Shown here one piece after another: positions 15,921-34,763 of a DNA stretch of 62,206 bases. This stretch comes from Mesoaciditoga lauensis cd-1655R = DSM 25116 (GTDB lineage Bacteria > Thermotogota > Thermotogae > Mesoaciditogales > Mesoaciditogaceae). The notes below the pieces were generated by a model. It saw only the letters and a list, made by a program, of their open reading frames with translations, made no database searches and was not told the origin of the DNA. The stretch is taken from contig NZ_JQJI01000010.1 in NCBI RefSeq assembly GCF_000745455.1, forward strand, positions 1-62,206, written 5' to 3'. Position numbers and translations under genes: made by a program. Position 1 is the first letter of the stretch. Each line of letters starts with the position of its first letter.

Positions 15921-15952
15921 GGTCAACGCTTTTTTAGCGAGGACCTTCCCCC
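15921..15952 (-). promoter_or_regulatory. Shine-Dalgarno followed by hairpin before atoD
   Basis: On the minus strand GGGGGA (15947-15952) is followed by GGTC-CT-CGCT-AAAAA-AGCG-TT-GACC (15921-15945), then seven bases and the ATG. Folding the hairpin would bring the Shine-Dalgarno within about 9 bases of the start. Confidence 0.45.
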
Positions 15953-15961
15953 TTTCTGTTT

Positions 15962-32898: not shown

Positions 32899-32929
32899 AA
32901 GGAGGTGGCCGTCTAACAAGACGGAAATG
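32899..32929 (+). promoter_or_regulatory. Shine-Dalgarno - hairpin - start codon of yajC
   Basis: AAGGAGGTGG (32899-32908) is followed at once by CCGTC-TAACAA-GACGG (32909-32924), a perfect 5-bp hairpin, then AA and ATG ATG (32927, 32930). The Shine-Dalgarno would be too far away unless the hairpin is folded. Confidence 0.6.
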
Positions 32930-33328
32930 ATGTTTGAAAACTTTGTCGCATTTGCAGATGCATCTGCAAAAAAAGCTGCTCCAACAACCGCAACCAGTGG
33001 AGGTTTTTCCTCTGGGACTATAAGCATGGTCGTGTGGCTTGTTGTTTTGGGAGCCCTTTTCTATTTCATGCTTGTTTATCCCCAGAAAAAGCGCAGTAAG
33101 AGTTTCAATCAAATGATGAGTAATCTCAAAAAAGGAGATACCGTTATAACAATCGGAGGTATCGTTGGAAAAGTTACCGATATCAAAGATAAGACCATCA
33201 AGATCAAAACAGCAGGTAACGATCTTGAAATAACCAAACGTTCTGTTGCATCCATAATGAAAGGTAGCAACAACGGCGGTAACGACGATGGAAACAAAGA
33301 AAACTCGAAATCCGATATCATAAAATAA
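32930..33328 (+). CDS. yajC: Sec translocase accessory protein YajC
   Basis: A 132-residue single-span membrane protein: short N-terminus, membrane helix SMVVWLVVLGALFYFMLVYP, the YajC hallmark PQKKRSKSFNQMMSNLKKGDTVITIGGIVGKVTDIKDKTIKIKTAGNDLEITKRSVASI, and a hydrophilic tail. It associates with SecDF, which follows directly. The start is one of two adjacent ATGs (32927 or 32930) beyond a hairpin. It lies 59 bases after kce. Confidence 0.95.
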   Translation: MFENFVAFADASAKKAAPTTATSGGFSSGTISMVVWLVVLGALFYFMLVYPQKKRSKSFNQMMSNLKKGDTVITIGGIVGKVTDIKDKTIKIKTAGNDLEITKRSVASIMKGSNNGGNDDGNKENSKSDIIK

Positions 33329-33338
33329 TACTGATAAC

Positions 33339-33374
33339 AGGGGGTGTGAAAGGGTTTAGACCCTTCTGAAAATG
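33339..33374 (+). promoter_or_regulatory. Shine-Dalgarno - hairpin - start codon of secD
   Basis: AGGGGGTG (33339-33346) is followed by AAGGGT-TTAG-ACCCTT (33350-33365), a perfect 6-bp stem, then TCTGAAA-like spacer and ATG 33372. The unfolded distance is about 27 bases; with the stem folded it is about 11. Confidence 0.55.
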
Positions 33375-34763
33375 AGAGCAGACAAAATTAGACTGATTTT
33401 TGTTCTACTTATTTTGTTCGTTTCTGTGTTCTTTATGGTGTGGCCTCCTGTTCCCAATGCAAAGAGTCTCGGTCAAAAAATCTTTGGGAACATAAAACTT
33501 GGTCTTGACATAAAAGGTGGTTCAAGATTGGACTACATCATGAAAGGTGCCAAGATAACACCAGAGCTGACCAGCCAAGTTTTAACGGTGTTAAGAAGAA
33601 GGCTTGACGATGCCAACTTCACCGAAGCCGTGGTATCGGCAGTTGGTGAAAACGGAATAAGGGTAGAAATACCTGGTATAAGTGATCCAAAGAAAGCCGA
33701 ATCTTTGATAGGACAAAAAGCGCAACTTTACTTCGCGCAAGTTTTGGATCATGTTACATCTGCCGTGAAACCAGCTCCTAAGATAGGGCTCAACTACGCT
33801 GGTGCGGTGTGGCTAAGATCCAAGAATGCCACCGATGATTGGTATCTTGTCAACAAAAACATCCAAGTTGGCGCTGGTACACTGCAGCTTTCTGGTAACG
33901 ATGTTAAGAACGCAGTTGCCGCTGTCAATACCCAACGCGGTGGATGGAAAATAGATTTGACCTTTGATTCCAAAGGAGCAAAGTTGTTCTTCGAAATAAC
34001 CCAGGCTTTGGTTGGAAAGCCATTGGCCATTGTGATGGACAACTACGTTTTGAGTGCGCCAATAGTTCAAACTGCCATTCAAGGCGGAAGAGCTGAAATC
34101 ACCGGAAACTTCACCTACGATCAGGCTCAAGAGTTGTCCGCGCTTATAAGAAGCGGTAATTTGCCAGTTTCACTTGAATTGACAGAAGAACAAACCTTAG
34201 GGCCAACGCTTGGCTCGGACGTTATAAGAAGAAGTTTGATAGCCGGTATAGTTGGTGTCCTTTTGGTAATGGCCTATATGCTCATCTATTACTTTGGTAT
34301 GATGGGAGTTGTGGCAGATTTGGCACTCCTTTACAACGGCATATTCGTCTTTGGTATGTTGGCACTTACGCATGGAATACTGACATTGCCAGGTATAGCA
34401 GGTATCATTTTGACGATTGGTACCACAGTTGATGGAAACGTCATCATCTTCGAGAGAATAAAAGAAGAAATGAGAACTGGAAAAACCGTTCGTGCGTCCA
34501 TCTCTGCTGGGTTCAACCGTTCAACAGCCGTTATACTTGATGCGAATATCACGACGCTTCTTACGGCATTTGTCTTGTACTACTTCGGTACAGGTTCAAT
34601 AAAAGGATTTGCCGTAACGTTGACCATAGGTATATTGGGTACGATCTTCACATCGTTGGTTTTCTCAAGGTATTTAATCGATCTAGTTGCCCCCACCATT
34701 AAAAACAAATACGCCAAACTCGTAGAACAACCAGAAAGCATTAAAGGGGGTAGAAAAAGATGA
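33372..34763 (+). CDS. secD: Protein translocase subunit SecD
   Basis: Uses the proton or sodium gradient to pull exported proteins from SecYEG. The 463-residue protein has an N-terminal helix, the LGLDIKGGSRLDYIM motif, P1 domain (reduced compared with E. coli), AGSLP-type ALIRSGNLPVSLELTEEQTLGPTLGSDVIRRSLIAG, and five C-terminal helices with the GTTVDGNVIIFERIKEE motif. The first ATG beyond a hairpin is the start. The gene overlaps secF by four bases and follows yajC by 43. Confidence 0.96.
   Translation: MRADKIRLIFVLLILFVSVFFMVWPPVPNAKSLGQKIFGNIKLGLDIKGGSRLDYIMKGAKITPELTSQVLTVLRRRLDDANFTEAVVSAVGENGIRVEIPGISDPKKAESLIGQKAQLYFAQVLDHVTSAVKPAPKIGLNYAGAVWLRSKNATDDWYLVNKNIQVGAGTLQLSGNDVKNAVAAVNTQRGGWKIDLTFDSKGAKLFFEITQALVGKPLAIVMDNYVLSAPIVQTAIQGGRAEITGNFTYDQAQELSALIRSGNLPVSLELTEEQTLGPTLGSDVIRRSLIAGIVGVLLVMAYMLIYYFGMMGVVADLALLYNGIFVFGMLALTHGILTLPGIAGIILTIGTTVDGNVIIFERIKEEMRTGKTVRASISAGFNRSTAVILDANITTLLTAFVLYYFGTGSIKGFAVTLTIGILGTIFTSLVFSRYLIDLVAPTIKNKYAKLVEQPESIKGGRKR

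Follow-up and report, generated by a model that had tools for sequence, protein, structure and literature searches.

The window analysed here, a stretch of 62,206 nucleotides from Mesoaciditoga (Thermotogota), carries yajC, secD and secF in that operon order. In the leaders of yajC and secD, a strong Shine-Dalgarno (SD) sequence lies far from the start codon and the spacer between them can fold into a hairpin. The elements of the two leaders are as follows.

32899..32907, + strand: yajC SD, AAGGAGGTG (sequence; 16S rRNA 3' end in the same genome)
32909..32924, + strand: yajC spacer hairpin, CCGTCT-AACA-AGACGG, 6 bp (folding; comparison of five genomes)
32930..33328, + strand: yajC coding sequence, conserved second ATG to stop (Pfam YajC; start conservation)
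33339..33346, + strand: secD SD, AGGGGGTG (sequence; anti-SD of 16S rRNA)
33350..33365, + strand: secD spacer hairpin, AAGGGT-TTAG-ACCCTT, 6 bp (covarying hairpin in nine Mesoaciditogaceae; another in Kosmotogaceae)
33372..34763, + strand: secD coding sequence (Pfam SecD domains; start aligned across the phylum)

In yajC, AAGGAGGTGG at 32899-32908 directly precedes the stem. A preliminary description of the locus had placed this stem correctly but gave it five base pairs, whereas it has six (CCGTCT/AGACGG). Two ATG codons follow. The first, at 32927, is replaced by GCG in the relative G005, by ACT in G009 and by ATA in G007, and the second, at 32930, is present in all five genomes compared; we therefore took the second ATG, five bases beyond the 3' end of the hairpin (32924), as the start of yajC. 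Measured from GGAGG, this start is 24 nt away, or 8 nt once the hairpin is subtracted; the corresponding values for the first ATG are 21 nt and 5 nt. Folding would shorten the gap, as had been proposed. The secD stem of 6 bp lies where it had been described, with three bases between the SD and the stem and CTGAAA between the stem and the ATG at 33372, and the spacing of 27 nt, 11 nt with the hairpin subtracted, agrees with the earlier reading. The loop of this hairpin contains an in-frame TAG (33357-33359), and the yajC stop lies 10 nt 5' of the secD SD. The 3' end of the genome's own 16S rRNA is ordinary and contains GGATCACCTCCTTT, so the SDs of yajC and secD are complementary to it, the latter using one G-U pair. 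No in-frame ATG, GTG or TTG stands at an ordinary SD distance in either gene, and an upstream in-frame start was excluded by the sequence.

Folding predictions made the local hairpin the dominant structure of the yajC leader, folded up to 75 °C and leaving the SD largely open. Against shuffled spacers, the secD fold reached p=0.034 and the yajC fold, with the spacer taken up to the second ATG, p=0.004; in short stretches the z values were -2.3 for yajC and -2.1 for secD, and longer stretches were unremarkable. These single-sequence results are modest, and the weight of the argument rests on comparison, that is, on conservation across genomes, changes on both sides of the stems and the rarity of the arrangement elsewhere.

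Across five genomes, all 12 columns of the yajC stem are invariant and 8 of the 9 other spacer columns vary (Fisher p=4e-5, a value that ignores the relatedness of the genomes). This hairpin is confined to the Mesoaciditoga clade; Athalassotoga and every other family seen have an ordinary SD, for example GGGAGGAATAACTTAAGTG. For secD, leaders were inspected in some 65 Thermotogota genomes, and the spacer hairpin was found in 9/9 intact Mesoaciditogaceae loci (that of G006, cut by a contig end, was left out), both genomes of f4, a sister family, and all 15 Kosmotogaceae examined. Conservation of the stems in related species, proposed earlier as a check, was thus borne out by three families at secD and by the invariant yajC stem. 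That two neighbouring genes for one complex share the arrangement, as had been emphasized, is real, but the yajC case belongs to one clade and the secD case is much wider. By inspection, families f2, f5, f7, f8, f9, f10 and f11 have ordinary secD spacing.

The stem sequences of secD are unrelated between families. The Mesoaciditoga clade has AAGGGT/ACCCTT and AAAGGG/CCCTTT; Athalassotoga has AAGGCC/GGCCTT, AGGCC/GGCCT and GGGCC/GGCCC; f4 has stems of the ACTCAG(CC) type; and Kosmotogaceae have TGTCCGA/TCGGGCA, TGTCCGT/ACGGGCA and TGTCCT/AGGACG, together with longer forms. The total spacing in Mesoaciditogaceae (f1) and Kosmotogaceae (f6) is 22-35 nt, and the effective spacing is 4-12 nt with a mean of 9.8. 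In the two f4 leaders (L106 of G013 and L107 of G012), whose hairpins are longer, with an 8-10 bp stem or a 12-nt loop, the effective spacing is 16-17 nt and exceeds that of the other groups. The fit is therefore imperfect, given these f4 values and the 4 nt of G017.

The pairing within these stems was examined column by column. The MAFFT alignments A1 and A2 put the 3' arm in the wrong place because loop lengths differ, and the arms were therefore aligned in register by hand. With registers set in this way, on sequences that are few and related, 95% of cells were paired in Mesoaciditogaceae secD, with three pairs changed on both sides, and 98% in Kosmotogaceae, with two such pairs. The covariation score was matched by 3/500 shuffles in Mesoaciditogaceae and 0/500 in Kosmotogaceae; the shuffles do not model relatedness, so the counts are to be read as support and not as probabilities. 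When the partners were shifted to slid registers, no pairs changed on both sides were left and the covariation score fell away. Since relatives keep the pairing while the letters change, the hairpins are probably real and used.

In a tree of 31 SecD sequences, the trait requires at least two changes, one in (f1+f4) and one in f6. Long branches meet in this tree and a motif filter had removed 13 of 44 sequences, for which reason one origin of the secD hairpin followed by several losses is also possible. Among 51 secD loci of other phyla, 23 had an ordinary SD, 24 had no SD and 4 had a far SD; the two far-SD loci whose hairpin is stable are probably matches inside genes, and the hairpin was rejected as a general trait of bacterial secD.

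The predicted favoured fold of the leader is the hairpin in yajC, whereas in the secD of the window it is not the hairpin described earlier but a structure in which the SD itself is paired with the 3' arm of that hairpin.

33338..33368, + strand: secD alternative fold, CAGGGGGU (33338-33345) with ACCC 33360-33363 and UCUG 33365-33368 (minimum-free-energy fold)

The predicted energies of the alternative and the local hairpin are -12.5 and -6.6 kcal/mol at 37 °C and -5.7 and -3.2 kcal/mol at 60 °C, where the gap is about 2.5. In isolated RNA the local hairpin has a predicted probability of about 0-0.01 at 37-65 °C, and the SD has a predicted unpaired probability of 0.02-0.07. Leaders that sequester the SD are exemplified by T4 gene e, pchA and RNA thermometers, and Mesoaciditoga secD resembles them in that its SD can pair with downstream sequence. 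These energies, the low accessibility of the SD and a yajC stop only 10 nt before it would speak for a regulatory switch, off when the 3' arm is bound to the SD and on when it is bound to the local 5' arm, with the balance tipped by the ribosome terminating on yajC, by 30S binding or by warmth. Unlike in such leaders, however, the pairing is not conserved. When the leaders of relatives were folded, the alternative was not retained outside the Mesoaciditoga clade, within which it is strong in G000, G005 and G009 and weaker in G007 and G008; it is absent or weak in yajC, whose SD is largely open, and in other families. In Athalassotoga and Kosmotogaceae, predictions leave the secD SD mostly or half unpaired, so that SD sequestration is not the conserved element of secD, and we regard the switch as an unlikely explanation. 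An RNA thermometer at secD was rejected on the same unconserved pairing and on the prediction that the SD of the window's own secD retains about 74% pairing at 80 °C. Together with a yajC hairpin predicted to persist to 75 °C, this leaves the temperature control that had been suggested for these leaders without support.

To see how common the arrangement is, 862 kb, about 40% of the genome in stretches, was scanned with simple uncurated ORF calls (817 genes) for a strong SD found only at 14-42 nt together with a hairpin in the spacer whose predicted energy was -6.5 kcal/mol or lower. Such a far SD was the sole one in 18 of the 817 genes, of which five carried a qualifying hairpin (1.28 expected by shuffling): yajC, secD and the genes for a CoA-transferase A, a FakA-like protein and a 1292-aa Ig-like lipoprotein. 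Ordinary strong-SD genes of the genome have a spacing mode of 7-8 nt. Far strong SDs without a hairpin also occur, although many of these may reflect miscalled genes or starts. Blind scanning of 400 kb of Athalassotoga returned secD as its sole match, 400 kb of G018 (Kosmotogaceae) returned five including secD (1.99 expected), and 200 kb of a control genome, G056 of f8, returned none. These counts make the design a rare one, which extends beyond Sec genes and is not general across the phylum. Since three non-Sec genes carry it, Sec-specific regulation is weakened, and the translocation-sensitive control raised earlier finds no support; the gap between yajC and secD is also too short to encode an arrest-peptide leader gene.

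One of the non-Sec leaders, a third case of the design, lies in the same window.

15921..15945, - strand: CoA-transferase A hairpin, GGTC-CT-CGCT-loop-AGCG-TT-GACC (scan, folding, Pfam)

Its SD, AAAGGGGG, is at 15948-15955 and its ATG at 15913-15911 on the - strand, and the hairpin reduces 34 nt to 9. G005 retains this stem, with two both-side changes (inner CGCT/AGCG to GTCT/AGAC), and relatives other than G005 lack it and have ordinary spacing. The lipoprotein gene (L252:2760-2800, G000:C24) has AAAGGAGGTG and a stem TCCTGGT/ACCAGGA that ends at the start codon. The TCCTGG/CCAGGA pairing is retained throughout the family, with ATG, GTG or TTG as start codon in relatives; the AGGA of the 3' arm lies six bases 5' of a second conserved ATG, an alternative start, so that two starts may compete. 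In the FakA-like gene (L238:15229, - strand; G000:C1:155229), GGAGGTG is followed by an 8-bp hairpin, CTCACGTT-AAA-AACGTGAG, and then GTG. This stem is kept in the genus and in G005 and G009, weak in g3 and absent in Athalassotoga; G008 has an in-frame ATG within what was once the spacer. An ABC-permease gene of G018 (Kosmotogaceae; L170:16410-16452), which has many paralogues, shows AAGGAGGTG, a 9-10 bp hairpin CTTTCTTCAT-TAA-ATGAGGAAAG and ATG; CTCCTTTC in this leader could alternatively pair with the SD.

Read directly from the sequence are the SD, the spacer hairpin, the start codon, the lack of a normally placed start and the conserved pairing. From these we infer that the ribosome would initiate on the folded hairpin and that initiation would depend on it, and we consider it quite likely that the yajC and secD leaders are hairpin-accommodated ('split') ribosome-binding sites. 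The anti-SD of the 30S subunit would pair with a strong SD 22-35 nt 5' of the start codon, and the spacer would fold into a hairpin of 5-10 bp that is left protruding, bringing the SD and the start codon to about 7-12 nt apart and the latter into the P site. Compensating changes and near-ordinary effective spacings argue for the structure-dependent initiation originally suggested. In Mesoaciditoga secD, the SD would stay mostly hidden until the 30S subunit, or the ribosome ending yajC, displaces its pairing, whereupon the freed 3' arm could form the bridging hairpin; such a partner exchange upon ribosome binding is possible, given that in the fold predicted to be favoured by the isolated RNA the 3' arm is bound to the SD.

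The closest precedents come from phage T4. According to PMC3014915, which cites Nivinskas 1999 and Malys & Nivinskas 2009, a hairpin reduces the SD spacing of gene 38 from 22 to 5 nt. The same paper gives a reduction from 27 to 11 nt for gene 25, confirmed by DMS probing and reporters, and states that structure-destabilising mutations in these genes reduce initiation and that the hairpin occurs in close relatives only (PMC3014915). The leaders studied here likewise combine a strong, too-distant SD with a spacer hairpin (24 to 8 nt in yajC, 27 to 11 nt in secD) that close relatives keep and distant ones replace by ordinary spacing. They differ in belonging to chromosomal cellular genes, several per genome and retained across families, in being known from sequence comparison and, for secD of the Mesoaciditoga clade, in having a competing fold that hides the SD. 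In E. coli thrS, as PMC3936740 reports from Sacerdot et al., the site is split and a protruding hairpin is accommodated by the ribosome; the deleted hairpin domain (-48 to -14) is flanked by a distal single-stranded stretch on one side and by the proximal site on the other (PMC3936740). A ribosome-accommodated hairpin thus interrupts the binding site in both cases, but the thrS hairpin as described there lies upstream of the start region, whereas those of yajC and secD lie between SD and AUG. A search of open-access literature returned only the T4 and thrS cases, and no report of the design in cellular genes.

The thrS example and the recurrence of a hairpin at secD in separate families could also point to a site for a protein or other factor controlling yajC and secD translation, with the spacing as a side effect. 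Loops and stems vary between and within families, however, the yajC and secD hairpins have no sequence in common, and unrelated genes show the design, which makes such a site quite improbable. That the hairpins are incidental or tolerated insertions, with the AUG used with distant or no SD contact, would suit the modest single-sequence fold statistics but is hardly credible in view of the both-side changes, the invariant yajC stem and the recurrence at secD in three families. Among other candidates, a repeat element was rejected (the yajC stem is found once in the genome), as were a known RNA family (Rfam gave no match except a meaningless one) and an intrinsic terminator (a U-run is missing 3' of both stems).

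Bridging of the spacer by a ribosome-accommodated hairpin therefore remains our preferred reading. A more far-reaching version, which we hold to be doubtful, is that secD gained a bridged site at least twice within Thermotogota, that the class makes up about 0.6% of the sampled Mesoaciditoga genes and that in Mesoaciditoga secD the SD and the bridge compete for one arm, with 30S binding to the SD triggering bridge folding. The kind of site is known experimentally from two T4 genes; here it is seen conserved, with compensating changes, in cellular chromosomal genes, repeatedly at secD. A gene finder tuned to an SD 5-13 nt upstream would be misled at such starts, and the alignments offer natural material for testing how the space between the SD helix and the P site accommodates a hairpin. 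The finding suggests that ribosomes of some bacteria routinely accept spacers that are folded.
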